Source: a virus. From it: a stretch of DNA of 54,161 bases. The translations under genes were made by a program, and so were the position numbers. Of the stretch, positions 37,505-54,161 are shown one piece after another (the stretch's first letter is position 1; each line of letters opens with the position of its first letter). The stretch is taken from positions 1-54,161 of the IMG/VR virus record IMGVR_UViG_3300043446_003900; one strand, 5' to 3'. A model generated the notes under the pieces. That model was not told the origin of the DNA. It did not search any database and was given only the letters and a program-made list of their open reading frames with translations.

Positions 37505-37505
37505 A

Positions 37506-38246
37506 TTATTCTTGTAAATATTTTTTCATCCAAACATCAGTTATATGCATACTTTCATATAAGTTTTCAATATAAACACTATCATCTCGTTTTCTATGAT
37601 AATACTCAAAATCATCAACAACTTTATAATTATTACCACCCTTTAACCAATAATAAGAAAAAGCAATCACGTCAGCAGCAAATACTTCCGAATAATCAGA
37701 AAAAAATTCTTTTTGAGTACGAATATATTCATGTTTGTTGACAATAAAATTTCCCCCATTTAGTATCATACAAATAGGATCAGTAATATTTACACCAGTT
37801 TTAACTAAATTTTTAACAAAATCAAAATTTATTTTATCAAACATATTATATTTGACATCTGTTCCAAAAGGAAATACTTTTGAAATTTTTGGAAAATATA
37901 AATTTTTTGGATCATAATCTAGTTTTTTTATTACATTTAATGTAGATATTTCAAAATAATTATCACTGTCTAAAAGATAAATCCAATCATTTTTACAGTT
38001 TTCAATTGTTCTATACTTATTTCTATACGGTCCAAAATTATTTTTATTATGAATTACTTTAATCTTATTTGAATTATTAAGACTAGAAATTATTTTATAA
38101 ACATTTAAAATATGAGTTTGTTTCGAATTATCATCGCAAATAATTATTTCGTCAATGAAATCACTATGTAAAGCAATTTTTACAGCATCAAATATGTATT
38201 GAGAGGAATTAAAAAAAGGTATTCCTAAAGAAATTTTATCAATCAT
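37506..38246 (-). CDS. GT2-family glycosyltransferase
   Basis: This 246-residue protein is a GT2 enzyme: ISLGIPFFNSSQYIFDAVKI at the start, IIICDDNSKQ at 34-43, KIKVIHNKNNFGPYRNKY, and the metal-binding DSD at 93-95 (IYLLDSDNYFEI). GT2 members add one sugar to a lipid-linked or protein-linked acceptor. The start overlaps the GH130-like gene by ATGA, so both are co-translated. Substrate unknown. Confidence 0.85.
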   Translation of the reverse strand: MIDKISLGIPFFNSSQYIFDAVKIALHSDFIDEIIICDDNSKQTHILNVYKIISSLNNSNKIKVIHNKNNFGPYRNKYRTIENCKNDWIYLLDSDNYFEISTLNVIKKLDYDPKNLYFPKISKVFPFGTDVKYNMFDKINFDFVKNLVKTGVNITDPICMILNGGNFIVNKHEYIRTQKEFFSDYSEVFAADVIAFSYYWLKGGNNYKVVDDFEYYHRKRDDSVYIENLYESMHITDVWMKKYLQE

Positions 38247-39226
38247 TCTTCAAAAATATAACGGTTAACAAAGTCCTTATTAACTCTTAAAACATAAGCA
38301 GCATTGTCTTGAAATCCAAAAGTGATCAAATAATCATTACCATATTCACACATACCAACAGCAAATTCAATCTCCGCTTCCAAGAAAGAAAATCTCCTCG
38401 AAACTTTTACAATATTCCAATCTTTATCCCAAACAATAAAACGATGTCGGTATGTTCCATCTTTTCTACCTGCAGGACTTTTAAACAAAAATGTTTCATG
38501 ATTAAGTGCCAACCTATACTCACCAAATGGAATTACTTGAGATCCACCCCGAAGATCAATACACCCCAAATCTTTCCAATCTTTTACCTTAATCTGAGTT
38601 GTTTGTCCATTGTGAATATCATATTTAACAACTTCAGTACCATTTGTCCACTTTACAAAGTGGTACGGCAAATCGAGAATTGGCATCCAATTCTTTTCAC
38701 AATAAGAATTATTATCACCTGGTGTTGGAATGCGATGTTGATTCAATTCCTTGACTTGCCCATCAATAATTTCAATTTCGCATAATTCCATTCTTCCAGT
38801 ACCAATGGTGTCAAGATCTCTTCTTACACCACAAGTATAAAGTTTTCCTTCCCACCTAAAAATACGAGCGTCTTCAAGACCAACAAACTCCCAAAGTTCT
38901 TTATCAGGATGTTTAGAAGTATCAATATGAGTATGCCATTTGAGTCTCATATTTTCATCAAGTTCACCAATTACATTCCAAGTACGAAGACGTAAATCAT
39001 TTTCGGGATGAATATAAACTAATGGACCCCAGTGATGCTCAAATATTTTTTTCTCAGAATGATAAAGAGTATAATTGATGTTTCTAAGATTTACAATAAG
39101 TCTACCATTATCATTGTAAATGGAAGGATTTGTAATTGCAGGTCCCTTTAAATCTGTTGAAGGAATAATTAAAGGATGAATAGATCCTCCATTTTCCAAT
39201 GCAAGTTTTACAAAATTTTCACTCAT
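38243..39226 (-). CDS. GH130-like / five-bladed propeller carbohydrate protein
   Basis: This 327-residue protein has GLEDARIFRWEGKLY (116-130), EKNWMP (177-182), LRGGSQVIPF (225-234) and EIEFAVGM (285-292). These blocks resemble GH130-type enzymes (mannoside phosphorylases and mannosidases), which have an 'EDPRI' blade and a late 'G(M)...' blade, and proteins that accompany glycosyltransferases in phages. It could cleave, phosphorolyse or only bind a glycan. The ATG at 39226 is 34 bp below a CTAAATA late box, and it heads the glycan operon down to 32895. Confidence 0.6.
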   Translation of the reverse strand: MSENFVKLALENGGSIHPLIIPSTDLKGPAITNPSIYNDNGRLIVNLRNINYTLYHSEKKIFEHHWGPLVYIHPENDLRLRTWNVIGELDENMRLKWHTHIDTSKHPDKELWEFVGLEDARIFRWEGKLYTCGVRRDLDTIGTGRMELCEIEIIDGQVKELNQHRIPTPGDNNSYCEKNWMPILDLPYHFVKWTNGTEVVKYDIHNGQTTQIKVKDWKDLGCIDLRGGSQVIPFGEYRLALNHETFLFKSPAGRKDGTYRHRFIVWDKDWNIVKVSRRFSFLEAEIEFAVGMCEYGNDYLITFGFQDNAAYVLRVNKDFVNRYIFEE

Positions 39227-39760: not shown

Positions 39761-40426
39761 TCAATTATTTATGGGAATCCCATATTTTTGTGATAGTTCA
39801 AGATTTTGTTCTTCCATTGTTTGGAATCCTTTTACTTGTGCCCAACAAACGATACTGTATCGTTTTCCTTTTGTAACTGGTTCAACGCCGTGTTTATAAT
39901 GACGATTTGATGGAAAACAAATTAACATTCCTGGTTCTGGACGAATACGAATTTTAAGATCAGGAAATATAAAATCACCACCCTCAAAATCATCATTCAA
40001 ATAAAACACCATTGAAAGATCACGATCAGTAGATTTCTTCCAAATCAATTCTCCCTTTGGTGTTTGCCATAAGGATTCTCCGTCAAGATGAGGACAATAA
40101 TGACCTCCAACACTATAAGAAAGTATTTGTGGAACTTCACTTTGACTGATTTGAACACCATAAAATGGATTAATAATTTCTCTTACAGTATCTTTAAATA
40201 AATCTACAATTTTGGGAAACAATGGACCCATTTCAACATGTTGAGTATCTCTCACATTCTTATCTACTCTCCATTGTTTTGTTCCAGTCTCATTTGACTT
40301 TTGTGGATCAAATACAGATAAATCAGTTTTTTGAGATGTTTCAATATGATGACGGATTTCTCTTAATCCAGTTTCATTAATAATATTTGGTCTTATCAGA
40401 ATATAAGATAAAGGATTATCAATCAT
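39761..40426 (-). CDS. 2OG-Fe(II) oxygenase, prolyl-4-hydroxylase type
   Basis: This 221-residue protein has an intact jelly-roll active site: HxD at H113/D115 (HLDGES), distal H179 (HYKHGVEPV) and the 2-oxoglutarate-binding R189 (KGKRYSIV), with FEGGDFIFP (148-156) between. It should hydroxylate a protein or small molecule using iron and 2-oxoglutarate. Family members include prolyl hydroxylases, but the collagen-like fibres in this window have almost no proline in their triplets, so another substrate is likelier. It begins 25 bp after a propeller gene, behind the shared element at 40427-40447, and is followed by a late box. Confidence 0.88.
   Translation of the reverse strand: MIDNPLSYILIRPNIINETGLREIRHHIETSQKTDLSVFDPQKSNETGTKQWRVDKNVRDTQHVEMGPLFPKIVDLFKDTVREIINPFYGVQISQSEVPQILSYSVGGHYCPHLDGESLWQTPKGELIWKKSTDRDLSMVFYLNDDFEGGDFIFPDLKIRIRPEPGMLICFPSNRHYKHGVEPVTKGKRYSIVCWAQVKGFQTMEEQNLELSQKYGIPINN
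39766..39772 (-). promoter_or_regulatory. ATAAATA late-promoter-like box
   Basis: Minus-strand CATAAATA, core 39772-39766, 22 bp upstream of the 132-residue gene and inside the end of the 2OG oxygenase gene. Confidence 0.45.
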
Positions 40427-40451: not shown

Positions 40452-42461
40452 TTATACTATATTTGTAACAATTTTCTTCACTGGAAATGCGCCACTTGAT
40501 GCGGCAAGGTTATCACGAGCAGTACTTAAAACAGCACTGGGATTGATAGTCGTAATATCTGTTGAATAAGTTAATTTATCCACAGTTGATAATCGTGTAG
40601 GACCAGGAGTAGCACCACCACCAAAATATCCTGCCGTTGAGGATCCTGTTGCGGCATTACCAAAACGAGCAGCACTTAAAATAGCACCGGGAATAGCAGC
40701 AGTTGTATCAGTTGAATAAGTTAACTTATCCATTTTTGATGTTAATGGAAGACCACCACCAAAGTATCCTGCTGTTAAAGATCCTGTTGCACCACAACGA
40801 TAAGTACTAGCAGTTAAATTAGCACCAGGAGTGAATGCAGTTGTATCGGTTGAATAAGTTAATTTATCCATTCTGCTTTGTACCCCAGGAACTCTACCAC
40901 CACCAAAGTACCCCACTAGTCCGTTTCCTGTTGCCGCAAGATAAAAAGAACCAATACTTAAATTAGCACCAGGAGTATAAGCAGTTGTATCAGACGCATA
41001 AGTTAATTTATCCATTCTTGAATGGAATGTTGCTGCTGGTTGAAGACCAGCACCAAAATATCCTGCTGTTGAGGATCCTGTTGCAGCAGAACCATAACGA
41101 ATAGTACTTAAATTAGCGCCAGGAGTATATGCAGTTGTATCGGATGAATAAGTTAACTTATCCATTGTTGATACTACACTGCCAGTAGTACCACCACCAA
41201 AATATCCTGCTGTTGAGTTTCCTGTTGCGGCAATAGAGTCACGAGCAGAACTTAAAATAGCACCGGGAATAGCAGCAGTTGTATCGGTTGAATAAGTTAA
41301 CTTATCCATTGTTGATACTACACTACCAGTAGTGCCACCACCAAAATATCCTACATTTGAAGTGACACTATCAAGAACTTGTGAAGTTGTTGAAGTTGAT
41401 GTTGGGTTTGGTTGTGCTCCCAAACTTCCAGTACCAAAATTAACTGACAGTGTTGCTGCAGCAGGTACTCCATTTGCTCTGGCACTTGATGCAGCAAAAC
41501 TATTACGAACAGCACTTAAATTGGCACCAGGAGTATATGCAGTTGTATCGGTTGAATAAGTTAACTTATCCATTCTTGATACAGCTGCAGGAACATTATC
41601 AGTACCACCACCAAAGTATCCTGCCGTTGAAGATCCTGTTGCGGTAAGATATCGACGACCAGCAGTTAAGTTAGCACTAGAAGGAAGATTGGAAGTAATT
41701 TCCGTTGAATAAACTAATTTTGCAACTTCACTTGCTACAGTTCCACCACCAACAAAACCACCACCAAAATATCCTGCTGTTGTATTTCCTGTTGCACCAG
41801 CAACCTGACGACTACTAGGTAAATTAGCACTAGGGATGGCAGAAGTTGTATCGGATGAATAAGTCAACTTATCTACTCTTGTATAATAAGTACCAGAAAA
41901 ATCACCACCGCCAACAAAGTATCCTGCTGTTGAGGATCCTGTTGCCATCAACCTTTGACGAGCAATACTTAAATTAGCACCAGGAGTATATGCTGTAGTA
42001 TCAGTTGAATAAGTTAATTTATCCATTATTGTTGTATTAGTAGCACCGCCACCAAAATATCCTACTGCTACAGATCCTGTTGCACCCATAAAAGTACGAG
42101 CAGAACTTAAATTAGCACCAGGAGCAGCAGCAGTTGTATCGGTTGAATAAGTTAACTTATCCGTTGTTGATCCAGCAGAACCACCACTAAAGTATCCTGC
42201 TGTCGGAGATCCTGTTGCACCATGAGAATCACGATTAGAACTTAAATTAGCACCAGGAGTATAAGCAGTTGTATCAGTTGAATAAGTGACCTTATCCATT
42301 CGTGAATATGCTGCAATACCACCACCAAAATAACCTGTGTTTGGTGAAGTTCCCACAGGTGAAGGTAAAACCCAAACATCATTAAGATTTACCCACTCAT
42401 CAGATAATGATATATCTACGATGTCTATTAATGCAAATACACCCCGAGTGTCAGTGGCCAT
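40452..42461 (-). CDS. Double six-bladed kelch-like propeller protein, copy 1
   Basis: This 669-residue protein has a short head (MATDTRGVFALIDIV, then WVNLNDVW) and 12 units of about 48 residues, each starting GYFGGG or a variant and continuing (S/M)xMDKLTYSTDTT, PGANLS and ATGSSTA. Six units run from residue 43, a Ser/Pro/Thr linker follows, then six more from about 370. The GG after an aromatic resembles kelch blades. Some blades differ (GYFSGG, GYFVGG, GYFGAG). The C-terminus is KKIVTNIV. It overlaps the oxygenase-like gene by 11 bp. Adhesin or fibre-tip role is inferred from repetition and neighbours; family known in cyanophages only as hypothetical or fibre-like, as I recall. Confidence 0.8.
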   Translation of the reverse strand: MATDTRGVFALIDIVDISLSDEWVNLNDVWVLPSPVGTSPNTGYFGGGIAAYSRMDKVTYSTDTTAYTPGANLSSNRDSHGATGSPTAGYFSGGSAGSTTDKLTYSTDTTAAAPGANLSSARTFMGATGSVAVGYFGGGATNTTIMDKLTYSTDTTAYTPGANLSIARQRLMATGSSTAGYFVGGGDFSGTYYTRVDKLTYSSDTTSAIPSANLPSSRQVAGATGNTTAGYFGGGFVGGGTVASEVAKLVYSTEITSNLPSSANLTAGRRYLTATGSSTAGYFGGGTDNVPAAVSRMDKLTYSTDTTAYTPGANLSAVRNSFAASSARANGVPAAATLSVNFGTGSLGAQPNPTSTSTTSQVLDSVTSNVGYFGGGTTGSVVSTMDKLTYSTDTTAAIPGAILSSARDSIAATGNSTAGYFGGGTTGSVVSTMDKLTYSSDTTAYTPGANLSTIRYGSAATGSSTAGYFGAGLQPAATFHSRMDKLTYASDTTAYTPGANLSIGSFYLAATGNGLVGYFGGGRVPGVQSRMDKLTYSTDTTAFTPGANLTASTYRCGATGSLTAGYFGGGLPLTSKMDKLTYSTDTTAAIPGAILSAARFGNAATGSSTAGYFGGGATPGPTRLSTVDKLTYSTDITTINPSAVLSTARDNLAASSGAFPVKKIVTNIV

Positions 42462-42981
42462 TCTTTAATATTATTTTTTGATACAGCATAGAAGTATTTA
42501 GATCTTGCCCAAATCCTTTACCATAAGAATGCCAACGATTTGCACGAAATAAAATCATACGATTATACTTTGCGGAAATACTTCCATACTCCTTCCATAA
42601 GTCGGGATTGTTTGCAAAAATATTCAACAAATTATTTTCTTGAAGATTATATTTAACCTTTTCTTCTTCTGTTGGAAATGTTTCAAGTCCAGTGACACGA
42701 TGGGAATAAAACTTCATTCCAAATTCACCAAAGGAAACCAATGGTAAAGATAGATAAATTACAACAATCCAATCAGCAAGTAAGTGAGCACACACAGAAG
42801 TATTTTGGTTCTCACTCAACACTTCATTCGTTGCACTGATAATTTCTATTTTATTACCAACAATGTTACTCAACTTATCATAAGTCTCATTGGTAATGAC
42901 ACACTGGTTTTCAAAAAAACCTTTATGATATTGGTGTGGAATATCATAAAGGTTATCTACAATGACAATAGACTGGTTCAT
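42451..42981 (-). CDS. 2OG-oxygenase-fold protein, apparently inactive (DUF6445-like)
   Basis: This 176-residue protein parallels the enzyme at 49058-49672: IVIVDNLYDIPH at the start and YNRMILFRANRWHSYGKGFG (139-158) near the end. The metal triad is not intact as read: the HxD is replaced by H66-L-L-A-D70 (CAHLLADWIVVIYLS), H151 remains, and the residue in place of the 2-oxoglutarate-binding Arg is M165. It may be an inactive binding protein or act on an unusual substrate. It overlaps the next gene by 11 bp and the previous by 4 bp. Confidence 0.6.
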   Translation of the reverse strand: MNQSIVIVDNLYDIPHQYHKGFFENQCVITNETYDKLSNIVGNKIEIISATNEVLSENQNTSVCAHLLADWIVVIYLSLPLVSFGEFGMKFYSHRVTGLETFPTEEEKVKYNLQENNLLNIFANNPDLWKEYGSISAKYNRMILFRANRWHSYGKGFGQDLNTSMLYQKIILKNGH

Positions 42982-43835
42982 TGTGCTATATTATTACCTT
43001 CAATTTGTTTGTTTTCTACACCAGGTGAAATTGCTGCACCATAACCAAGATCCTTCCCAGAAACTTTTTCATATCCCTTCATTACCTTGCTTTGAAGATC
43101 TGCAATAAACTCTTGTCTTCCTTGTGGATCAAGAAGTTTATTCATAGGTAGATAACCTTCGCTGAATTGATTTTTCTCATCCACAATAGGAGGTGCAGAT
43201 GCTTGACGCATTGCAGTAATATTTGCACCAGAAATACCAGTTTGTGCTGAAAGAAGATCATCAAGTGCCTGCTGGGCAAGACGAGTATCCCAATAGTTTT
43301 CATTCTCTTTCAGGAACTGTTCTCTGGAAGGAGGAGTACCACCATTTCTTTCAACCAGTTTATTCAACATCTTATCCAGATGTTCCATTTGATGCATACG
43401 ATCACGAATTTCTAATTCTGAATTTTTCAGATAATGCATCAGTTCAAGTTCTTCAAGATCATACCAACAGAGTTTCTTATGACCACCACCAGGTCCACCA
43501 ATTTCCCACATAATTGGTTGAGTTTTATCTTTATCATGCCACTTATATTCAAATTCACGAACTCGTTCTTTCATTTCAATGAGTTTGAACATATAACCAG
43601 ATGCCATTCCACGTCGCTCTTTGAGAATATGTTCAAAGGTCACTGAAATGTTATGAGTGTTCATACCAATGAACTTCTCAATCTGGAAGTTAGTTCTTCC
43701 TTGTGCTAGTTCCTTGTCACTTTCTTCCCAAGTAAATACATTTTGGGATGCTAATTTTAAAAAAGTGTCGTCATTAACTGCTTGCTCAGCATTAATTGGA
43801 TTATAAGAAAGCGCAGAAGAGTTGTCAGTAGTCAT
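42978..43835 (-). CDS. Conserved cyanophage hypothetical, 285 residues
   Basis: This protein is rich in charged helices: FTWEESDKELAQGRTNFQIE, then FIGMNTHNISVTFEHILKER, then KHDKDKTQPIMWEIGGPGG-like text with HKKLCWYDLEELELMHYLKN. GTPPSREQFLKENENYWD follows and a Gly/Asn-rich end. No catalytic motif is seen; a virion or assembly factor is likely by context. An exact TATAAATA box lies about 73 bp upstream and a good SD (GAGGATAGT) precedes the ATG; the leader holds a hairpin. It overlaps the oxygenase-like gene by ATGA. Confidence 0.6.
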   Translation of the reverse strand: MTTDNSSALSYNPINAEQAVNDDTFLKLASQNVFTWEESDKELAQGRTNFQIEKFIGMNTHNISVTFEHILKERRGMASGYMFKLIEMKERVREFEYKWHDKDKTQPIMWEIGGPGGGHKKLCWYDLEELELMHYLKNSELEIRDRMHQMEHLDKMLNKLVERNGGTPPSREQFLKENENYWDTRLAQQALDDLLSAQTGISGANITAMRQASAPPIVDEKNQFSEGYLPMNKLLDPQGRQEFIADLQSKVMKGYEKVSGKDLGYGAAISPGVENKQIEGNNIAQ

Positions 43836-43867
43836 ACTATCCTCATTAATTTTGTAAGTCGTTTGGT

Positions 43868-43895
43868 CTAATTATATGTTCAAAAACATAATTAG
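43868..43895 (-). other. Imperfect hairpin in the leader of the 285-residue gene
   Basis: An inverted repeat (CTAATTAT with ATAATTAG) closes a loop in the 5' leader. It lacks a T run, so it is not an intrinsic terminator; a role in mRNA stability or translation is possible. Confidence 0.4.
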
Positions 43896-43907
43896 AAATT
43901 ATAAAAG

Positions 43908-43915
43908 TATTTATA
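43908..43915 (-). promoter_or_regulatory. Exact T4-type late promoter box TATAAATA
   Basis: Minus-strand TATAAATA (43915-43908), the T4 late consensus, directly after the stop of the GT4-FkbM gene and 73 bp upstream of the 285-residue gene. Confidence 0.65.
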
Positions 43916-45514
43916 TTATACTCCAAAACCTTTATTGCGATTTTGATTAATTGCAAAGAAAGTTCCAGAAGATAATCCTTGTTCTTCTGATCCTGAATTT
44001 TGTGTTACCTTTTCAATTTTAAATCCATTAAATTTCAAATATTTAAAAAGCATTTCTTCATTATAGGATGTCATACCAATATGATATTCACCGACAATTT
44101 TTTCAACCTTATGAAGTAACTTTGAATTCATTAGAATTTCATATTCAGATCCTTCTACATCTAGTTTGAGTAACTTAACTTTTTGAAACTTGAACAGAAT
44201 ATCATCCAAAGAAATTGTTTCCACTTGAATAGGAACAAATTGTCCTTCTTCAAAATGAGTTTTATAGAATGAATTTAGACCAGTGTTTGGTTTATTTGGT
44301 AGGGTATAAAACTCCAAATACTCATTAGAAGTTTTCCATACAGCAAGATTATATGCAGCAAAGTGCTTATAGTTTGAGAGATTAGATCTCATCAATGAAT
44401 AATTATTTGGTTCTGCTTCATATGCAAATACATTTTTACAACCTTTGTCCATACAAAGTTTGCTGAAATATCCTGCGTGTCCACCAATATCAATCACTAC
44501 ATCGTGCTCATTAAAGGTATCAACTTCATAGGAATTTTCAACATAAACTTCATTAAAGATCCAATCGTCCATTGTTTGAGGACGGAAAGAAACTGAATGA
44601 GTTGTAGAACCAGTTAAAGTTTCAATTGTATTTTTCCACATTTCAGAAACTCGTTTCCAGTTATATCGTTCTGAAACATAATCTGAAATGAGTTTAGAAA
44701 CTTCGTGATAATATTTTTGTTCCTTATCATAATATTCCAATGCCATACAACAAGCATTGACAAAATTAATCAAAAAGTTATCTGTAACTTTCCAACCTTT
44801 GGATGTATTCTCACCTTCAATCGGAACAACAGTAGCATTCTTTTCACCAGCAACTTCTGCAAGTGCTCCAATGTTGGTAATGATTGGATATGCACCACAC
44901 TTCATTGCTTCTGTCATTGCAACACAAAATGTTTCTTCCCAGATATTTGGATGAATAAAGAATGCAGATTCCTGATAGTGTTTGACTAATTCTTCACGAT
45001 CAACAGCAGGAGAATACTCAACATTTTTCATTGTTTTTAAATGATCATAAAGTTGAAGATATGGATCATTTGAAGGCCCATACAAAGACATTGAAGAAAA
45101 GATTTTAAACTTTGTATCTGGATGAACCTGATGAATCATAGGAATAATTCTTGCCAGAACTTCAAGACCCTTATAAGGAATTGAAGTGAAAATCATCGTC
45201 TTTGTTTTCTGATTTGAATAGGTAAACATTTCAGCAATTCCTGTTGGAATCACTGTGATCTTATGTTCTGGAACATTATGATACTTCATAAATTGTTCCT
45301 TGTTCCATTGAGAAGGAGAAACAATATGATGGAGAATATGATGATCAAAGTTTAAAAAGAATTGCTGATCATATGCATGTTGTGCCCAGAGAATTTTATA
45401 CTCGTGATTAGACTTTTTAATTTCTTCTGGTAAATGATGAACAAAAACATTATCTGGAATTTTATAATGTTCTTCCAGATAAAAATAAGAAGATTCCGTT
45501 GCTCCAGATTTCAT
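43916..45514 (-). CDS. GT4 glycosyltransferase-FkbM methyltransferase fusion
   Basis: This 532-residue protein has a GT-B/GT4 half (residues about 40-300): ILWAQHAYDQQFFLNFDHHI, then the nucleotide-sugar EETFCVAMTEAMKCG (193-207, E-x7-E). A FkbM half follows (about 335-520): VVIDIGGHAGYFSKLC (339-354, SAM motif I) and KLLKLDVEGSEYEI (about 443-456). It would add a hexose and O-methylate it or a neighbour. Each half matches separately encoded enzymes elsewhere in phages, so fusion is notable. AAGGATAGT is its SD; 4 bp separate it from the next GT. Acceptor unknown. Confidence 0.85.
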   Translation of the reverse strand: MKSGATESSYFYLEEHYKIPDNVFVHHLPEEIKKSNHEYKILWAQHAYDQQFFLNFDHHILHHIVSPSQWNKEQFMKYHNVPEHKITVIPTGIAEMFTYSNQKTKTMIFTSIPYKGLEVLARIIPMIHQVHPDTKFKIFSSMSLYGPSNDPYLQLYDHLKTMKNVEYSPAVDREELVKHYQESAFFIHPNIWEETFCVAMTEAMKCGAYPIITNIGALAEVAGEKNATVVPIEGENTSKGWKVTDNFLINFVNACCMALEYYDKEQKYYHEVSKLISDYVSERYNWKRVSEMWKNTIETLTGSTTHSVSFRPQTMDDWIFNEVYVENSYEVDTFNEHDVVIDIGGHAGYFSKLCMDKGCKNVFAYEAEPNNYSLMRSNLSNYKHFAAYNLAVWKTSNEYLEFYTLPNKPNTGLNSFYKTHFEEGQFVPIQVETISLDDILFKFQKVKLLKLDVEGSEYEILMNSKLLHKVEKIVGEYHIGMTSYNEEMLFKYLKFNGFKIEKVTQNSGSEEQGLSSGTFFAINQNRNKGFGV

Positions 45515-45518
45515 AATA

Positions 45519-46172
45519 CTATCCTTGATAAATGTGATAACCAGTATGATTTAAACGAATTGTTGTGTCTAACCAAATATCATAACCGACTTGTTGTGCT
45601 CTATGAAAAAAACTTTTGTCTTCTGACATAAATGAATTTTGAGTTTTATGTTCCGCAAAGTAATGATAAGAATTATTCATTTCAGCATCTGTATGAGGAG
45701 TATCTGAATGATAATCGGATGGAATATATTTTAGACCTGGATATTGTTTTGTAATGTCAAGAAAAACTTGACGATGAATAAGAACAAATCCCATTCCGTT
45801 ACCATTAATTTTTACAAGATCTCCTTGTCGTTGCTCTGGTTGAATAACTTCTACACAATATCGTTCTGGGATTATCTTCATCGGATAAGCACCAGAAACG
45901 ATTGGAAGTTGATATGATAGTAATTTTATCACATCTTGTGGATTAAATCCAATATCACTGTCCAAAAAGAAAAGATAGTCGTGCTCCGTATTATTGATGA
46001 AAAAACTTGCGATCTTTGATCTTGCCTGACTGATCAAAGAAGAATTTGTCAGCGTTAAAAGTCCGTGATCTATATTTGCACGAACTAATGCTTTTCCTAA
46101 ATTGAAAAGTCCAAGTGTTGTTTTCTCACTCACTATTCCCCCACTACACGGGAGACCAATCATTATACTCAT
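45519..46172 (-). CDS. GT-A-fold glycosyltransferase
   Basis: This 217-residue protein has a GT-A core: SIMIGLPCSGGIVSEKTTLG, then LFFLDSDIGFNPQDV with the DSD metal motif at 71-73, and HTDAEMNNSYHYFAEHKT. It is smaller than typical GT2 enzymes. It starts 28 bp after a propeller gene, behind the repeated element at 46173-46196. An in-frame ATG four codons later is a possible alternative start. The sugar added is unknown. Confidence 0.75.
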   Translation of the reverse strand: MSIMIGLPCSGGIVSEKTTLGLFNLGKALVRANIDHGLLTLTNSSLISQARSKIASFFINNTEHDYLFFLDSDIGFNPQDVIKLLSYQLPIVSGAYPMKIIPERYCVEVIQPEQRQGDLVKINGNGMGFVLIHRQVFLDITKQYPGLKYIPSDYHSDTPHTDAEMNNSYHYFAEHKTQNSFMSEDKSFFHRAQQVGYDIWLDTTIRLNHTGYHIYQG

Positions 46173-46196
46173 ATAAAGTTTTTAATTATTATAACA
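46173..46196 (-). promoter_or_regulatory. Repeated intergenic element, extended -10-like
   Basis: Minus-strand TGTTATAATAATTAAAAA, 16 bp before the ATG of the GT-A gene and just after the propeller copy 2 stop. Same element as at 40427 and 49673. Confidence 0.5.
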
Positions 46197-46200
46197 CAAA

Positions 46201-48231
46201 TCATACGTTATTTGGAGCTGGAGTTGAATAAGTTGGTTGTGGAAGTGCATTTGCTCTAGCACTTGATGCGGCAGGACGACTGCGATTAGAACTTAAATTA
46301 GCACCTGGAGTGTAAACAGTTGTATCAGTTGAATAAGTTAATTTATCCATTCTTGATACTGGACCGGGACCACCGCCACCAAAATATCCTGCTGTTGAAG
46401 AACCTGTTGCAGCAAGAGAAGAACGATTAGAACTTAAATTGGCACTAGGAGCGTAGGCGGTTGTATCAGTTGAATAAGTCAATTTATCCATTCTTGAATA
46501 AAAAGTAAGCGGAGAAGGAAAAATACCACCTCCAAAGTATCCATGAGTTGAGTTCCCTGTTGCACCAGGATCGTAACGAGCAGCACTTAAATTAGCACCA
46601 GGAGTATATACGGTTGTATCAGTTGAATAAGTTAATTTATCCATTGTTGATACCACGCTAGGACCAGGGGAACCACCACCAAAGTACCCTGAAGTAGAAT
46701 TACCTGTTGATGCAGAAGAAGCACGAGAAGAACTTAAATTAGCACCAGGAGTATATACGGTTGTATCGGTTGAATAAGTTAACTTATCCATTGTTGAAAA
46801 GAAAATACCTCCTCCGAAATATCCCGCAGTGGAATTTCCTGTTGCTGTAACATTACGGGCAGAGCTTAAATTAGCACCAGGAGTAGCAGCAGTTGTATCA
46901 GACGCATAAGTCAATTTATCCATTGTTGAATATGAGTTAACACCTCCACCAAATCCGCCACCAAAATACCCTGCTGTTGAGGATCCTGTTGCACCAAGAC
47001 CATTGCGGGAAATACTTAATGCAGCGGCAGGAATTACTGTTGTCGTATCGGTTGAATAAGTTAACTTATCCATTGTTGAAGAATAACTAGGAATCTCACC
47101 ACCACCAAAGTATCCTGTGTTTGGTGTTGGTACTGATGCAAGTGAAGTTACTGATGTTGGTGTTGCTGCTGGTGGTGTCCCTGGTGTTCCGTCACTAAAT
47201 CTTACTGCTGGTGATGCTGGTGCTGGAAATAATTCAGGTAGTGCATTTGCTCTTGCGCTTGATGCTGCAAGACTATAACGAGAAGCACTTAAGTTAGCAC
47301 CAGGAGTATAAACAATTGTATCAGTTGCATAAGTCAATTTATCCATTCTTGATGCTGGAGCTGGACCGATACCACCACCAAAGTATCCATTAGTAGAAGA
47401 ACCTGTTGCAGCAAGAGCACGACGAGCAAGACTTAAATTAGTACCAGGAACTGATACTGTCGTATCAGTTGAATAAGTTAATTTACTGATTAAAGATAAA
47501 TTAGCGGCAGGAGAAAAACCACCACCAAAATATCCATTAGTTGAGTTTCCTGTTGCAGCAAGATTACTACGAGAAGGACTTAAATTAGCACCAGGAGTAT
47601 ATGCAGTTGTATCGGTTGAATAAGTTAACTTATCCATTGTTGATTTGTAGGCAGGACCAGGAATACCACCACCACCAAAGTATCCTGCTGTTGAATTACC
47701 TGTTGCAGCAAGATAAGCACGAGCATCACTTAAATTAGCACCAGGAGTATAAACGGTTGTATCGGTTGAATAAGTTAACTTATCCATTGTGGTTACAGTT
47801 ATACCACCACCAAAATATCCTGCATTTGAGTTTCCTGTTGCAGTAAGAACCAGGCGAGCAGCACTTAAGTTAGCACCAGGAGTTGCTGCTGTTGTATCAG
47901 ATGAATAAGTGACCTTATCCATTGTAGATGTTGATGAAGGAGTACCTCCACCACCAAAGTATCCTGCTGTTGAATTACCTGTTGCAGCATGAGCATAACG
48001 AACAATACTTAAATTAGCACCAGGAGTGAATACTGTTGTATCAGTTGAATAAGTTAATTTATCCATTCTTGATACTACAGGAGTAGTGCCACCACCAAAG
48101 TATCCAGTATTTGGTGTATATCCAGCAGGGGATGGAGAAATCCAAACATCATTGAGGTTTACCCATTCATCAAATATTTCTTTTTCTGTGATTTTTTCTA
48201 GACTAAAAACTCCCCGTGTATTAACTGCCAT
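46201..48231 (-). CDS. Double six-bladed kelch-like propeller protein, copy 2
   Basis: This 676-residue protein follows the same plan: head MAVNTRGVFSLEKI and WVNLNDVW, six GYFGGG blades, a Pro/Ser/Ala linker (LPELFPAPASPAVRFSDGTP), six more blades, and end PNNV. The last blade's DNA (46259-46338) is identical over 80 bp to blade 6 of copy 3. Individual blades differ mainly in loops after GYFGGG (for example IGPAPAS, FSPAANLSL), which would be the variable surface. It starts 3 bp after the sulfotransferase stop. A CTAAATA-like sequence at 48285-48291 is too far inside a gene to call. Confidence 0.8.
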   Translation of the reverse strand: MAVNTRGVFSLEKITEKEIFDEWVNLNDVWISPSPAGYTPNTGYFGGGTTPVVSRMDKLTYSTDTTVFTPGANLSIVRYAHAATGNSTAGYFGGGGTPSSTSTMDKVTYSSDTTAATPGANLSAARLVLTATGNSNAGYFGGGITVTTMDKLTYSTDTTVYTPGANLSDARAYLAATGNSTAGYFGGGGIPGPAYKSTMDKLTYSTDTTAYTPGANLSPSRSNLAATGNSTNGYFGGGFSPAANLSLISKLTYSTDTTVSVPGTNLSLARRALAATGSSTNGYFGGGIGPAPASRMDKLTYATDTIVYTPGANLSASRYSLAASSARANALPELFPAPASPAVRFSDGTPGTPPAATPTSVTSLASVPTPNTGYFGGGEIPSYSSTMDKLTYSTDTTTVIPAAALSISRNGLGATGSSTAGYFGGGFGGGVNSYSTMDKLTYASDTTAATPGANLSSARNVTATGNSTAGYFGGGIFFSTMDKLTYSTDTTVYTPGANLSSSRASSASTGNSTSGYFGGGSPGPSVVSTMDKLTYSTDTTVYTPGANLSAARYDPGATGNSTHGYFGGGIFPSPLTFYSRMDKLTYSTDTTAYAPSANLSSNRSSLAATGSSTAGYFGGGGPGPVSRMDKLTYSTDTTVYTPGANLSSNRSRPAASSARANALPQPTYSTPAPNNV
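46259..46338. repeat. 80-bp identity with 50734-50813 (propeller blades)
   Basis: Exact 80-bp match between the last blade of propeller copy 2 and blade 6 of copy 3. Flanking sequence diverges, as expected for recombination or gene conversion between paralogues. Confidence 0.8.
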
Positions 48232-48234
48232 CTT

Positions 48235-49056
48235 TTAAAAGTACTTATGATTAGAATACTTCCAGTATTCAAGGTTCGTATACCTATTTAGAATATAGGA
48301 ACTCAATATATCCTCTGGGTTCTTTGATTTCTTTTCAATTTTCTTCCGAACATGATGCATATCTTTAAGATACCATTGATCATCAATTTCTCTATGGGTG
48401 TTCTCAATTCTATCAAAGTTATGAGAATAAGAATCAATCTCTAAAAAGTCATAAATCTTCTTTAAGGTCTCATTTGGATTTGAGATTAGATCATCATACT
48501 CAACCATATGTAAGTATTTCTTATCATCACCACGAATAAATGCTTGTGATTGTGCCCAAAGTGCTTGCTCTACAATTCCATCTTTACTCATTAAATAGTC
48601 ACATCGGTTATCATCAGTAATTGATAAACCATTTTCAATCAAATACTGATCCACAAAAGACACTTGATCATTATTGCGTCTTATCATTGTAATAAAGGAT
48701 GTTAGTATCTCTGTTATATTTCTTACTGGGCAAATAATTTTTGGAATTGGAGTAATAAAAGTCTTAATCATTTCAATATTATTACTCCAAGCACGACAAT
48801 GATCAATAATGATTGGTTTTTCTACATCAAAATAATAGTCATCAATGATACTTGAGATCACTTTATGTGCCGACTTTGGTTTTGGATATCCAAGGTATTG
48901 TTCACTATCAACAAAATATTGATTATTATAATGTGTCAATTCTAAAACAGGGCTGACTGGTTCGGTATGAAGTTGTGGATTTTGATTGAGAATACTTTTC
49001 AATAATGTGCTACCAGATCGTGGAAGACCTGCCATAAAATAATAAGTCTTATTCAT
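48235..49056 (-). CDS. Sulfotransferase
   Basis: This 273-residue protein is a PAPS-dependent sulfotransferase. The 5'-phosphosulfate loop GLPRSGSTLL is at 10-19, and the 3'-phosphate loop lies near R112 and S120 (ICPVRNITEILTSF). A His or other base in FVDQYLIEN-like positions cannot be fixed. It would sulfate a sugar hydroxyl or a tyrosine. In context next to glycosyltransferases and a propeller gene, sulfating fibre or host glycans is an inference. It lies 1 bp after the DUF6445-like enzyme. Confidence 0.85.
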   Translation of the reverse strand: MNKTYYFMAGLPRSGSTLLKSILNQNPQLHTEPVSPVLELTHYNNQYFVDSEQYLGYPKPKSAHKVISSIIDDYYFDVEKPIIIDHCRAWSNNIEMIKTFITPIPKIICPVRNITEILTSFITMIRRNNDQVSFVDQYLIENGLSITDDNRCDYLMSKDGIVEQALWAQSQAFIRGDDKKYLHMVEYDDLISNPNETLKKIYDFLEIDSYSHNFDRIENTHREIDDQWYLKDMHHVRKKIEKKSKNPEDILSSYILNRYTNLEYWKYSNHKYF

Positions 49057-49057
49057 A

Positions 49058-49672
49058 TCACCACTCTATTGGATTAAAAAAGAATAATTGAACCAATCTA
49101 CCATTTTCTAATGTAGTTCCAAAATTATAATTATGAGAATGCCAAAGTCTAGCATTAAAAATCACTAGACGATTATACTTCATTGGTGAGAGAAAGTATC
49201 GTGTCCATTTTGAACGATCCAATCCTTCACCATAAACTGTAGTCCACCACGCTTCTTTGGGAACAGAATATCCAAAATGATTTGCCTCAGGTTGATTTGA
49301 AGGGCAAAACTCCATTTGGGTTTTATTATGTATCCAGAACGATGTACCACCCTCATCAATTACTTGTTCTGGTGTATTTAAATAACAAACTGCTCCCCAT
49401 TCCCAACAAGGATCTACATGAACATCTTGACGGAATGTGTCTGTTTCTAACGATAATCTAAAATATCCATTGGGTTGTGATGGTGTTAACTTAGATTGTA
49501 AAATATTTTCAAACTTTTGATGTAGTTCTTCAGGGTAATATCCAACTTCTGTGTTCTTTCCCGGATAAGTATATTCATCATAAGGTTCTGGATATTCTTG
49601 TTGAAGTGCAAATTGACGAACTTCATCTGGATTTGAATGGAAATCGTCAATGACAATAATATTGCGATTCAT
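49058..49672 (-). CDS. 2OG-Fe(II) oxygenase, DUF6445-like, intact triad
   Basis: This 204-residue protein begins NIIVIDDFHSNPDEVRQFAL, typical of DUF6445-type dioxygenases. The HxD is H85-V-D87 (RQDVHVDP), a later His is at H178 or H180 (LWHSHNYNFG), and R192 suits 2-oxoglutarate binding. The loop DEGGTSFWIHNKT holds the substrate. It should hydroxylate a protein or glycan. The paralogue at 42451 has lost part of this triad. It starts 28 bp after propeller copy 3, behind the repeated element. Confidence 0.75.
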   Translation of the reverse strand: MNRNIIVIDDFHSNPDEVRQFALQQEYPEPYDEYTYPGKNTEVGYYPEELHQKFENILQSKLTPSQPNGYFRLSLETDTFRQDVHVDPCWEWGAVCYLNTPEQVIDEGGTSFWIHNKTQMEFCPSNQPEANHFGYSVPKEAWWTTVYGEGLDRSKWTRYFLSPMKYNRLVIFNARLWHSHNYNFGTTLENGRLVQLFFFNPIEW

Positions 49673-49696
49673 ATAAGGTTTTTAATTATTATAACA
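49673..49696 (-). promoter_or_regulatory. Repeated intergenic element, extended -10-like
   Basis: Minus-strand TGTTATAATAATTAAAAA, 16 bp before the DUF6445-like gene and after propeller copy 3. Identical in its core and spacing to the element at 46173. Confidence 0.5.
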
Positions 49697-49700
49697 CTAA

Positions 49701-51695
49701 TTATACGATATTTGGTATTTGTCCTGAATAAGTTGGTTGTGGAAGTGCATTTGCTCTGGCACTTGATGCAGCAAGATTACTACGAGTAGCACTTAAATTA
49801 GCACCAGGAGTATATGCTGTTGTATCAGATGAATAAGTGACCTTATCCATTCTCCAGTCTGGTCCAGGATCACCACCACCAAAGTACCCTGCTGTTGAAT
49901 TACCTGTTGCACCAAGACGAAGACGAGCAACACTCAAACTTGCGCTAGAAGGAAGAGCAGAAGTTGTATCAGTTGAATAAGTCAACTTATCCATTGTTGA
50001 TATTGCTCCTGGAGCCCAACCACCACCAAAATATCCTGCTGTTGAAGAACCTGTTGCAGCAAGTTGATTGCGAGCAAGACTTAAATTAGCACCAGGAGTT
50101 GTCGCTGTTGTATCGGTTGAATAAGTGACCTTATTCATTGTTGATACTGAAGATCCTGTACCAGGATAACCACCACCAAAATATCCTGCTGTTGAAGATC
50201 CTGTTGCAGCAAGAATATAACGAACGGCACTTAAATTAGCACCAGGAGTGAATGCTGTTGTATCTGTTGAATATGTTAACTTATCCATTGTTGATACCGG
50301 TGCAGGACTACCACCACCAAAGTATCCTGCTGTTGAAGAACCTGTTGCAGCAAGATAACCACGAGCAGCACTTAAATTAGCACCAGGAGTTGCTGCTGTT
50401 GTATCAGATGAATAAGTGACCTTATCCATTGTTGAGACATAACCAGGATTCTTATTACCACCACCAAAGTACCCCGCTGTTGAAGAACCTGTTGCACCAG
50501 GACCGTTACGACCAGCACTTAAATTAGCACCAGGAGTTGCTGATGTTGTATCGGTTGAATAAGTTAACTTATCCATTGTTGATGTATTACCCCCACCACC
50601 AAAGTATCCTGTGTTTGGAGATGGCAATGTTCCTGGTGATGTTGTTGGAGTTGGTGTTGCTGCTGGTGGTGTCCCTGGCATTCCGTTACTAAATCTAGTA
50701 TTGTAAGTTGGTTGTGGAAATGCATTTCCTCTTGCACTTGATGCGGCAGGACGACTGCGATTAGAACTTAAATTAGCACCTGGAGTGTAAACAGTTGTAT
50801 CAGTTGAATAAGTCAACTTATCCATTGTTGATACCGGTCCAGGAATACCACCACCAAAGTATCCTGCCGTTGAGGATCCTGTTGCGGCAAGAAAATAACG
50901 AGCAGAAGTTAAATTAGCACCAGGAGTATATGCAGTTGTATCAGACGCATAAGTTAATTTATCCATTCTTGTTGTAGTACTCCAGCCACCACCAAAGTAT
51001 CCAAAGTTAGAATTTCCTGTTGCACCACAACCATAACGGGCAGAACTTAAATTAGCACCAGGAGTATATGCAGTTGTATCAGTTGAATAAGTCAACTTAT
51101 CCATTCTTGATACCGGTCCAGGAGCACCGCCACCAAAATACCCTGAAGTAGAATTACCTGTTGCAGCAAAAGAAGAACGATTAGAACTTAAATTGGCACT
51201 AGGAGTTGCTGCTGTTGTATCAGATGAATAAGTGACCTTATCCATTGTTGAGACATAAGAAGGAGAAGGAGTATTTCCACCACCAAAATATCCTGCTGTT
51301 AAGGATCCTGTTGCTCCAAGACGATAACGACTAGCACTTAAATTAGCACCAGGAGTGAATGCTGTTGTATCTGTCGAATAAGTAACCTTATCCATTCTTG
51401 ATGCTGCACTACCAGTAGTGCCACCACCAAAGTATCCTGCTGTTGAGTTTCCTGTTGCAGTAATAGAAGAACGAGCAGCACTTAAGTTAGCACCAGGAGT
51501 AAATGCTGTCGTATCTGATGAATAAGTCAACTTATCCATTGTTGATACTACACTACCAGTAGTGCCACCACCAAAGTATCCAGTATTTGGGGTTGGATTA
51601 TTACCAATCCACACATCATTCAAATCTACCCATCCACCTCTTGCATTTATTTTATTAACTAACCGTATAGAAAAAACACCTCTTGTATCTGCCAT
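49701..51695 (-). CDS. Double six-bladed kelch-like propeller protein, copy 3
   Basis: The start is the ATG at 51695 (664 residues, MADTRGVFSIRLV), matching the heads of the two other copies; an earlier ATG only adds 13 residues within the fibre gene. It has WVDLNDVW, six GYFGGG blades, a linker (FPQPTYNTRFSNGMPGTPPA), six more blades and end PNIV. Blade 6 (50734-50813) shares 80 identical bp with the last blade of copy 2, and the stretch near 51531 is identical to one in copy 1. It starts one base after the collagen-like fibre stop. Adhesin role inferred. Confidence 0.8.
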   Translation of the reverse strand: MADTRGVFSIRLVNKINARGGWVDLNDVWIGNNPTPNTGYFGGGTTGSVVSTMDKLTYSSDTTAFTPGANLSAARSSITATGNSTAGYFGGGTTGSAASRMDKVTYSTDTTAFTPGANLSASRYRLGATGSLTAGYFGGGNTPSPSYVSTMDKVTYSSDTTAATPSANLSSNRSSFAATGNSTSGYFGGGAPGPVSRMDKLTYSTDTTAYTPGANLSSARYGCGATGNSNFGYFGGGWSTTTRMDKLTYASDTTAYTPGANLTSARYFLAATGSSTAGYFGGGIPGPVSTMDKLTYSTDTTVYTPGANLSSNRSRPAASSARGNAFPQPTYNTRFSNGMPGTPPAATPTPTTSPGTLPSPNTGYFGGGGNTSTMDKLTYSTDTTSATPGANLSAGRNGPGATGSSTAGYFGGGNKNPGYVSTMDKVTYSSDTTAATPGANLSAARGYLAATGSSTAGYFGGGSPAPVSTMDKLTYSTDTTAFTPGANLSAVRYILAATGSSTAGYFGGGYPGTGSSVSTMNKVTYSTDTTATTPGANLSLARNQLAATGSSTAGYFGGGWAPGAISTMDKLTYSTDTTSALPSSASLSVARLRLGATGNSTAGYFGGGDPGPDWRMDKVTYSSDTTAYTPGANLSATRSNLAASSARANALPQPTYSGQIPNIV
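50734..50813. repeat. 80-bp identity with 46259-46338 (propeller blades)
   Basis: Partner of the repeat at 46259-46338, located at the end of the first propeller of copy 3. Confidence 0.8.
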
Positions 51696-51696
51696 A

Positions 51697-54161
51697 TTAT
51701 GTTGAAAGTTTAATTCCTGATATTTGAACATCAATTGTTGATGTTTGATCCAAAGTTACTTGTATTGAATTATTTGCATAAATTGATTTTGGATTATCTA
51801 ATATCTCAACACTTCCATATTTTGGAACAATCAAATCATCTATAAGATATGTGGTACTTAATCCGGTAGTTACAGCTATAGATACTGGATATCCTCCACT
51901 ATCAGTACGATTTACTAAACGAATAGATTGAATAACTGATCCCGTAGTTGTTGTTGTATAAATTGTAGTTGGACTTGTTGATGCAATTGAAACTGAACCT
52001 ACTCCAACTCCAAAATAGTTTGTATTCGTTGATTGTTCATAAGAAATGTATACTTGTACTCCAGTATCAGTTCCATCTCTATTATAATCAGTTGCTCTCA
52101 TTGCAATTCTATCAGATGGATTTAAAACCATCGGTTGTTTCAACAATTCAACCGAAGCACCAGTCGGAATTGGAATATTATATGCAAAATAACTTCTTTC
52201 GCCAGTACTATTAATATCAAAAGCACCGATGACATTTACTTCGGTATTTCCAATCGCTATATTTGAAGCATTAATAGAATGAATAATATATCTCTTGTCA
52301 GCAGTTGAAGGAAGTGTAAGAACGGTTGATCCAATAGCAATCAATGTTGCAGAAACACTACTTGTAATTCCAATATTAAATCCTCCTCCTCCTCCGCCGC
52401 TGCCGCCAGATCCTGATGCTCCCTGCAATCCTTGCAGACTACCTCCTTGTAGACCTTGAAGACCTTGAACACCCTGATTACTTAAACCTTGAAGTCCTTG
52501 AGCACCTTGAATACCTTGAGAACCTTGATTACTTAAACCTTGTAATCCCTGCAATCCTTGATTACCTTGAGTTCCTTGATTACCTTGTAATCCTTGAGTA
52601 CCTTGTAATCCTTGAGTACCTTGTAATCCTTGAGTACCTTGATGTCCTTGAAGACCTTGAGTACCTTGAGTACCTTGATTACCTTGTAATCCTTGAGTAC
52701 CTTGTAATCCTTGAGTACCTTGAGTACCTTGATCTCCCTGAAGTCCTTGAGTACCTTGAGTACCTTGAATTCCTTGAGTTCCCTGTAAACCTTGAGTACC
52801 TTGTAATCCCTGTAAACCTTGATTACCTTGAGTACCTTGAGTTCCCTGTAATCCTTGTAATCCTGCTGCATAAGGATCCGTCCAACTTACGCCAGCACCA
52901 GTGGAAATAAGAATAGATCCAGAAGATCCTAAGCTGTCATAACGATCATAAAGACCGCCATCAAGTGCCATATTTCCACCAACTGCCAGAACTGTTCCAG
53001 CAGACATATGAGTAGAACCAATTCCAACACCATAATTAAACATCCAAGCATCAGTACCAAGTCCACCCCAAGTTCCTTGCTTAACCCACATAATTTGCTT
53101 GTAGGTTTCTGGAAGTGGATCAGAAGATGATTTTATAGAAACTAATGGAGAACCTTCTGTAGATGCAATAGCAATACCACCGTGATTTGCAGTATCATCA
53201 TTTGGGTTAGTAGTTGTTGAATATCCAAGAATTATGTCTCTATCTTCAACTCTAAGTTCAGTAGCGTTAATATAGACTGATGTACCACCAATTGTTAGAT
53301 TGTTTGTAACATTTAAATCATAAACATTTAATAAAGTTCCATCAAATGTGAAATTATCAGATCCAGTTGGATTATTAGATCCATCCTTATAAACAACTTG
53401 ATAAGCAGAACCTGCTACAGGACCTGTTTGACCTTGGATTCCTTGTAAACCTTGAGTACCTTGTGTTCCTTGTGTTCCTTGAAGACCTTGAATTCCCTGA
53501 AGTCCCTGATGACCTTGTAAACCTTGAGTACCTTGCACCCCTTGGGTTCCCTGAAGACCTTGTGCTCCTTGAACACCTTGATCACCTTGAAGACCTTGAA
53601 GACCTTGAAGACCTTGAAGACCTTGAGTTCCTTGAGTACCCTGAGCACCTTGAAGTCCTTGAGTACCTTGTAAACCTTGAGTACCTTGAATTCCCTGAGT
53701 ACCTTGAGTACCCTGATCGCCTTGAGCGCCTTGAAGACCCTGAGTACCTTGATTACTTAAACCTTGAAGTCCTTGAAGTCCTTGAGAACCTTGATTACTT
53801 AAACCTTGAAGTCCTTGAAGTCCTTGAGATCCTTGATTACCTTGAAGACCCTGAGTACCTTGAGTACCCTGATCGCCTTGAGCGCCTTGAGTACCTTGAT
53901 TACTTAAACCTTGAAGTCCTTGAAGTCCTTGAGATCCTTGATTACCTTGAAGACCCTGAGTACCTTGATTACTTAAACCTTGAAGTCCTTGAAGTCCTTG
54001 AGATCCTTGATTACCTTGAAGACCCTGAGTACCTTGAGTACCCTGATCGCCTTGAGCGCCTTGAGTACCTTGATTACTTAAACCTTGAAGTCCTTGAGTA
54101 CCTTGAGAACCTTGTAATCCTTGAGTTCCTTGAACACCTTGATTACCTTGAAGTCCTTGAG
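51697..54161 (-). CDS. Collagen-like fibre protein, N-terminus beyond right edge
   Basis: About 821 C-terminal codons are visible; the GTG at 53538 is inside the collagen frame and is not the start. From the right edge to about 53425 run G-x-Q triplets with GLSNQ interruptions and two near-repeated blocks. A globular region (53424-52868) has FTFDGTLLNVYDLNVTNN and GGIAIASTEG, a domain shared with other cyanophage fibres, and a second collagen-like tract (52867-52420) ends in a poly-Gly hinge. The last 240 residues contain two similar beta-units (PIPTGASVEL, and VPKYGSVEIL). It is the upstream member of the same fibre family as the genes at 1-6342. No SD or head is visible. Confidence 0.85.
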   Translation of the reverse strand, partial: QGLQGNQGVQGTQGLQGSQGTQGLQGLSNQGTQGAQGDQGTQGTQGLQGNQGSQGLQGLQGLSNQGTQGLQGNQGSQGLQGLQGLSNQGTQGAQGDQGTQGTQGLQGNQGSQGLQGLQGLSNQGSQGLQGLQGLSNQGTQGLQGAQGDQGTQGTQGIQGTQGLQGTQGLQGAQGTQGTQGLQGLQGLQGLQGDQGVQGAQGLQGTQGVQGTQGLQGHQGLQGIQGLQGTQGTQGTQGLQGIQGQTGPVAGSAYQVVYKDGSNNPTGSDNFTFDGTLLNVYDLNVTNNLTIGGTSVYINATELRVEDRDIILGYSTTTNPNDDTANHGGIAIASTEGSPLVSIKSSSDPLPETYKQIMWVKQGTWGGLGTDAWMFNYGVGIGSTHMSAGTVLAVGGNMALDGGLYDRYDSLGSSGSILISTGAGVSWTDPYAAGLQGLQGTQGTQGNQGLQGLQGTQGLQGTQGIQGTQGTQGLQGDQGTQGTQGLQGTQGLQGNQGTQGTQGLQGHQGTQGLQGTQGLQGTQGLQGNQGTQGNQGLQGLQGLSNQGSQGIQGAQGLQGLSNQGVQGLQGLQGGSLQGLQGASGSGGSGGGGGGFNIGITSSVSATLIAIGSTVLTLPSTADKRYIIHSINASNIAIGNTEVNVIGAFDINSTGERSYFAYNIPIPTGASVELLKQPMVLNPSDRIAMRATDYNRDGTDTGVQVYISYEQSTNTNYFGVGVGSVSIASTSPTTIYTTTTTGSVIQSIRLVNRTDSGGYPVSIAVTTGLSTTYLIDDLIVPKYGSVEILDNPKSIYANNSIQVTLDQTSTIDVQISGIKLST

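Follow-up and report, generated by a model that had tools for sequence, protein, structure and literature searches.

The kelch fold, kelch proteins encoded by phages, and phage receptor-binding proteins made hypervariable by diversity-generating retroelements (DGRs) are all already known. This report concerns three paralogous genes, termed A, B and C, in a 54,161-nucleotide stretch of viral DNA (IMG/VR record IMGVR_UViG_3300043446_003900, positions 1 to 54,161; hereafter the window). Each gene encodes 12 kelch-like blades that are predicted to fold as two six-bladed propellers, and the arrays are considered, with a probability of roughly 0.6, to be tail-associated, fast-diversifying adhesins.

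The structural analogs outside phages are Keap1, KLHL3, KLHL12 and the designed SAKe6 ring, with which the predicted window fold shares six four-stranded blades, a GG doublet, a tyrosine, closure by a C-terminal strand and a binding face formed by the b-c and d-a strand connections (template modeling (TM) score of about 0.85). The window family differs from these proteins in that it has no BTB or BACK domain, has its kelch tryptophan replaced, strings one to six rings in tandem, and combines blade frames that are alike with loops that are unlike within a single genome. In tailed phages, a kelch or kelch-like fold occurs in CBB_550, CBB_552 and CBB_554, in a kelch-repeat protein of P-HM2 (PMC3037559), in a kelch-motif protein of BcepSaruman, and in virion proteins of PhiPA3, Noxifer and Phabio. 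Some of these reside in virions, CBB_552 having been detected there by mass spectrometry (PMC5259590). The BcepSaruman kelch-motif protein matches only part of protein B, at 33% identity. Arrays of 12-36 blades and a syntenic cassette holding as many as three paralogs are, as far as seen, particular to the window family, and hypervariability is not reported for the other phage kelch proteins in the accessible parts of the sources.

Proteins of the Synechococcus phage S-SKS1 (Llyrvirus), for example SWZG_00289-00291, belong to the same family by their blades, their head segment and a neighboring sulfotransferase, as does PHROG_19111. They are annotated only as hypothetical or of unknown function, and the S-SKS1 open reading frames (ORFs) seem interrupted in the deposited record. 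DGR-diversified phage proteins (C-type lectin targets and tentaclins; PMC10743442) likewise present a hypervariable surface on a fixed scaffold, but the window family has a kelch rather than a C-type lectin fold, spreads its variation across 12-36 blades, and is not accompanied by a reverse transcriptase in the 16 records searched. A preliminary description of the locus had held that tandem double propellers serving as phage adhesins were not described. Phage kelch proteins being known, this claim stands only in a narrower form: no account of 12-36-blade hypervariable arrays, or of tandem rings in sixes with one-face hypervariability and retroelement-free turnover, was found in the open literature, most subscription papers lying outside the search.

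Three genes of twelve blades each

Genes A, B and C lie on the minus strand, and each encodes 12 GYFGGG-type units (36 in total under the pattern GYF[GSV][GA]G). The units are spaced 45-51 amino acids apart, except for a single gap of 85-91 amino acids that follows unit 6 in all three proteins and yields the 6+6 split at a Ser/Pro linker that had been noticed at the outset. Protein A (669 amino acids, 40452-42461) contains ring 1 (blades 1-6) at 41472-42344, module residues 40-330, and ring 2 (blades 7-12) at 40482-41360, residues 368-660. Protein B (676 amino acids, 46201-48231) has the corresponding rings at 47239-48114 (residues 40-331) and 46240-47124 (residues 370-664). Protein C (664 amino acids from its ATG, 49701-51695) has them at 50715-51590 and 49740-50618, the latter being the ring that was modeled. 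The ATG of C, which begins MADTRGVF, is at 51695; the mechanical ORF opens earlier, with a TTG at 51734, and ring 1 spans residues 49-340 of that longer frame.

Ahead of the rings, all three proteins carry the common head that the preliminary description had recognized, M-A-x-TRGVF followed by WV(N/D)LNDVW. It occupies 51591-51695 in C (MADTRGVFS...WVDLNDVW), 42345-42461 in A and 48115-48231 in B, and is a possible attachment segment. When this segment was sought in other annotated phages, S-SKS1 was the sole match. PHROG_19111, whose function is unknown, matches all three proteins with E values of 1e-76 to 1e-131 (1.3e-76 for A, 8.6e-131 for B). Given these matches and the multiples of six in most related ORFs (see below), the repeats are not attributable to chance.

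A kelch-type blade with a degenerate signature

The blade consensus consists of GYFGGG, a variable loop, STMDKLTYSTDTTAYTPGANLSxxR, a variable pair, and LAATGSSTA. The layout is that of a kelch blade: the GG ends strand b, a Tyr lies on strand c, the former Trp position falls on strand d, and an Arg precedes strand a. The order of elements is identical, residue by residue, when the family profile is aligned with KLHL12 and SAKe6, and the 36 units agree with kelch repeats both in their period (about 44-56 residues in kelch) and in having a GG doublet behind a hydrophobic stretch. Column 23 is Tyr or Phe in 99% of family blades. Seven residues further on, column 30 lacks the classical kelch Trp, as first noted for the window, where the position is mostly Tyr, Ala or Phe; across family blades it is Ala in 67%, then Thr, Val and others. 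Because the Trp part of the Tyr-plus-Trp kelch signature fails, the proteins are assigned to the kelch type on the strength of fold and profile, and their signature is regarded as degenerate. Loss of the Trp is also the probable reason that a Pfam search of the window proteins returned zero matches. Relatives match the Pfam kelch models PF24681 (15 of 31 members), Kelch_3 and Kelch_4, with E values up to 7e-27, the family profile matches KLHL12 (E 3.8e-7), and protein B matches designed SAKe6 (SAKe6FR, E 2.7e-6). Scattered matches among relatives, for example to FAM183, SpdB and coproporphyrinogen oxidase, were put down to chance similarity in repetitive sequence.

Structure prediction was carried out with AlphaFold2 on C ring 2, one of the six window rings, together with 146 related modules. 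The model is a closed ring of six four-stranded blades (24 strands; predicted local distance difference test score (pLDDT) 96.1, predicted TM score 0.93), in which the last strand, residues 282-286, supplies strand a of blade 1, the terminal closure of kelch propellers. Foldseek relates this model to SAKe6 rings (E 1.2e-19) and to KLHL3, Keap1 and KLHL12 (TM 0.83-0.86), the Keap1, KLHL and SAKe matches together having E values of 1e-17 to 1e-19. Among viral models, it retrieves proteins of S-SKS1 and BcepSaruman, virion proteins of Noxifer, Phabio and PhiPA3, and the CBB kelch proteins. The other five window rings fall in the same module alignment. A full-length run of protein B with 30 relatives gave no usable model (pLDDT 39.6), probably because the repeats were misregistered. 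Six modeled blades and a near absence of Cys from the blades distinguish these rings from the galactose oxidase type, which has seven blades and a copper/Tyr-Cys site. The proposal that the window proteins are folded, closed six-bladed kelch-like propellers is strongly supported by the modeled half and by the profile matches. A propeller model resembling the window rings is also present in BFVD for the "sericin 1-like protein" of cyanophage S-RIM12 (A0A1D7SRT6).

Rings in multiples of six across the family

A hidden Markov model (HMM) of the blade was run on IMG/VR loci, and blades were counted in 113 complete related ORFs. Of these, 103 have 6, 12, 18, 24, 30 or 36 blades, equivalent to one to six rings per protein. 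A linker follows every sixth blade, and the spacing between blades, 48.5 +/- 2.5 residues inside rings, averages 69.7 across ring borders. The original argument that a constant blade count indicates folded rings thus gains strength, for proteins vary in how many rings they have, whereas a ring almost always keeps its six blades. The accompanying statement that each protein has exactly two propellers applies to the window phage and not to the family. The ten ORFs that depart from the rule include truncated or interrupted frames and weak blades, the latter probably missed by the HMM; in L023 one ring contains four blades.

At least 503 stretches in IMG/VR encode relatives, and the family is present in an isolate genome, that of S-SKS1 (isolated on Synechococcus WH7803), and in a single-cell genome, AG-345-L05. 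The kelch ORFs of S-SKS1 (L011, L014; HQ633071.1) appear interrupted, with 9 and 3 blades and one ORF split at the record ends, perhaps through sequencing errors in repeats. No relatives were found in bacterial and archaeal genomes by two scans limited to a few short patterns, which makes this weak evidence of absence. One AG-345-L05 protein (L012:15902-18652) has a Laminin_G_3 domain between its rings, and the motifs RFSDG and PPAATPT in the window linkers are similar to the two edges of this insert. A freshwater-group paralog type (L060:13545-15782) bears an additional N-terminal segment of roughly 110 amino acids ahead of its rings.

Two hypervariable sites on one face

In the window phage, column entropy is close to 3 bits at columns 10, 11, 14 and 15, in the loop after GYFGGG, and at columns 41-42, after the Arg. 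A smaller peak occurs at columns 38-39, the frame is mostly below 1 bit, and four other genomes show the same pattern. On the strands of the C ring 2 model, columns 10-15 form the b-c connection and columns 41-42 the d-a connection, while the a-b and c-d connections are conserved. In an up-and-down blade, the b-c and d-a connections share one face, where both variable sites would lie, and the other two lie on the opposite face. The preliminary description had put the variable loops after GYFGGG on one face, which is supported, but had overlooked the second site on that face, the two residues after the Arg. Several of the Nrf2-binding residues of Keap1 come right after the repeat Arg, as column 41 does here. 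Among the Keap1 contacts to Nrf2 are Ser363, Arg415, Ser508, Ser555 and Ser602 (PMC12266349).

Almost every family blade (1366 of 1391) has a distinct combination of b-c loop and d-a pair. It could be that the rings are structural spacers or decorations of a virion appendage, with loops that are simply unconstrained and bind nothing specifically. Repeat number does change by whole rings, as in a length ruler, and Pro, Gly, Ser and Thr are abundant in the b-c loop, as they tend to be in unconstrained loops. This is nonetheless considered unlikely, since the variation is limited to one face and columns 41-42 have a composition unlike that of the frame (21% Tyr, 14% Ser, 14% Gly, 10% Arg and 9% Asn, 68% in sum). 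In addition, the loops differ by 0.65-0.74 at codon positions 1 and 2, against 0.25 at the fourfold sites of the frames in the same blades, a gap wider than a mere relaxation of constraint should produce.

Turnover between relatives

Blades of the window phage, read from its twin L009, are 79% identical to one another in their frames and 17% in their loops. When the window phage is compared with ten other genomes, the frames are 45-76% identical and the loops 14-18%. The difference at fourfold sites among frames within the phage, 0.25, is well short of the 0.58 expected of unrelated sites, implying that the frames are young or homogenized. Among eight freshwater relatives, the sulfotransferase is 90-99% identical and the kelch frame 76%, and loops at the same position are scarcely more alike (18%) than loops at different positions (16%). 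Similarly, in three freshwater-group pairs the interleaved genes have about 92-97% DNA identity and the kelch genes 75-82%. At fourfold sites, kelch frames diverge by 0.185 when the blades hold the same position and by 0.194 when they do not, as compared with 0.174 in neighboring genes. Thus, the positional ancestry of the blades was lost in the time that the neighbors took to accumulate about 0.17 changes per fourfold site. An intermediate stage is seen between L063 and L064, in which 44-48% of same-position loop residues are still common in two genes and one protein has kept one ring and had the other replaced.

Assembly error in repetitive genes might conceivably produce such scrambling, because short reads can be mis-joined at repeats, and both the interrupted-looking S-SKS1 ORFs and the four-blade ring of L023 could be read in this way. 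An artifact is very improbable, however: whole arrays are identical in separate metagenome records (L062/L068, L072/L073/L087, L017/L022), L031-L033 are 99-100% alike, blade number remains a multiple of six, and the loops are unique rather than permuted. The family also occurs in the isolate and in the single-cell genome.

Exact aligned runs of at least 40 bases are found in 11 blade pairs of the window phage, compared with 2.2 in codon shuffles. An excess also occurs in L010 (37 versus 7.5), L049, L053, L062 and L074. The loop TTGSVV is common to window blades A7, A8 and C1, each with a different d-a pair. These tracts and this loop fit recombination between blades and between genes, which could be expected under T4-like replication and may be the main engine of diversification. 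A DGR encoded beyond the available sequence could in principle do the same, as hypervariable receptor-binding proteins of phages are known to arise through DGRs (PMC10743442) and most of the records are fragments. Such an element is highly doubtful here, since no reverse transcriptase was found in the 16 records, which reach 222 kb, and since the variation spans 12-36 blades and includes changes in loop length. DGRs do not usually alter loop length.

The surrounding gene cassette

The kelch genes are interleaved with others on the minus strand, in the order fiber, kelch, DUF6445, sulfotransferase, kelch, glycosyltransferases, DUF6445, kelch and oxygenase. Directly upstream of C is a collagen-like tail-fiber gene (51697-53538), the stop codon of which lies one base ahead of the C start ATG. 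Between C and B are a DUF6445 protein (49058-49672) and a sulfotransferase (48235-49056). Between B and A are a putative glycosyltransferase (45519-46172; phrog_1574, no function, with a weaker match to a glycosyltransferase family), a glycosyltransferase plus FkbM methyltransferase (43916-45514), a conserved 285-amino-acid cassette protein with no function assigned (42978-43835) and a second DUF6445 protein (42451-42981). A 2-oxoglutarate (2OG)-Fe(II) oxygenase (39761-40426) follows A. Neighboring genes are separated by 1-28 bases or have small overlaps, the exception being 80 bases from 43835 to 43916, and this tight spacing makes a single transcript likely.

The ORFs of AG-345-L05 follow the same cassette order. 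Its fiber (L012:474-5633) and the window fiber share a C-terminal domain (54% identity over 238 amino acids), and their shafts are wholly different, with GNxNIAIG-type repeats in the former and collagen-like sequence in the latter; by sequence, the fiber genes upstream of the kelch genes have undergone a shaft swap. The nearest relatives of the baseplate genes are in AG-345-L05 (Kyanoviridae) and in cyanophages such as S-SM2 and P-SSM2. Elsewhere in the window, a second and very long collagen-like fiber protein (1395 amino acids, 2155-6342) matches many tail-fiber PHROGs, and the region adjoining the cassette (32895-39226) has more glycosyltransferase genes and three ORFs without a PHROG match (36602-39226).

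Likely role of the kelch arrays

The setting among tail-fiber genes makes an adhesin role plausible, and CBB_552 sets a precedent for a kelch protein in a phage virion (PMC5259590). The product of each gene would begin with a short conserved head and continue as closed six-bladed propellers in series, connected through Ser/Pro linkers, and each blade would combine a near-constant scaffold with two variable sites on the face that holds targets in Keap1 and the KLHL proteins. The arrays would sit on the virion, in the tail fiber or baseplate region, and their variable faces would recognize molecules on the host surface, with glycans or surface proteins as the most likely ligands. Renewal of these faces would be fast, proceeding through recombination among near-identical blades and selection on loops, with no need of a reverse transcriptase. 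Conceivably, the oxygenase, DUF6445 proteins, sulfotransferase and glycosyltransferases modify such virion-borne adhesins, and their substrates may be the Pro/Ser-rich linkers or the collagen-like fiber.

Alternatively, the proteins could act inside the cell as binders of host or competitor proteins, in the manner of poxvirus kelch proteins, for instance in defense evasion or phage exclusion. Peptides are the usual ligands of kelch rings, an arms race with host proteins would fit the hypervariability as well, and some phage kelch genes, as in BcepSaruman, are located away from tail genes. The window genes, by contrast, are interleaved in a cassette of tail-fiber and glycan-enzyme genes whose order is kept in AG-345-L05, with C immediately behind the fiber gene, and one relative has a lectin-type domain inserted. 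An intracellular role consequently appears improbable.

Several points weigh against the adhesin reading and its proposed engine. The fold prediction covers one of the six window rings, the head has no match to a known attachment domain, and no virion proteomics or binding data were found for this family. The genomes, mostly fragments, leave room for a distant retroelement, and the excess of shared tracts is weak in L060 (7 versus 3.4, inside the shuffled maximum). Loop sequences common to close relatives are rare (2 of 137). Shuffling of whole loops from a small pool common to relatives does not match this rarity, so that loops must also be changing by mutation with selection or be drawn from a very large pool.

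Beyond the individual proteins, it is possible, at somewhat short of an even chance, that the family constitutes a widespread repertoire system of aquatic phages, in which several dozen blades per phage display a hypervariable ring face, homogenized frames recombine with no retroelement, and close relatives come to bear wholly different surfaces. The readings can be tested now, since S-SKS1 is an isolate that carries the family. As the rings resemble the engineered SAKe scaffolds, a large natural library of single-face variants would already exist. If the repertoire view is true, aquatic viruses of the cyanophage type change dozens of binding loops on a constant scaffold by modular, retroelement-free means, which could explain differences in host range among closely related phages.

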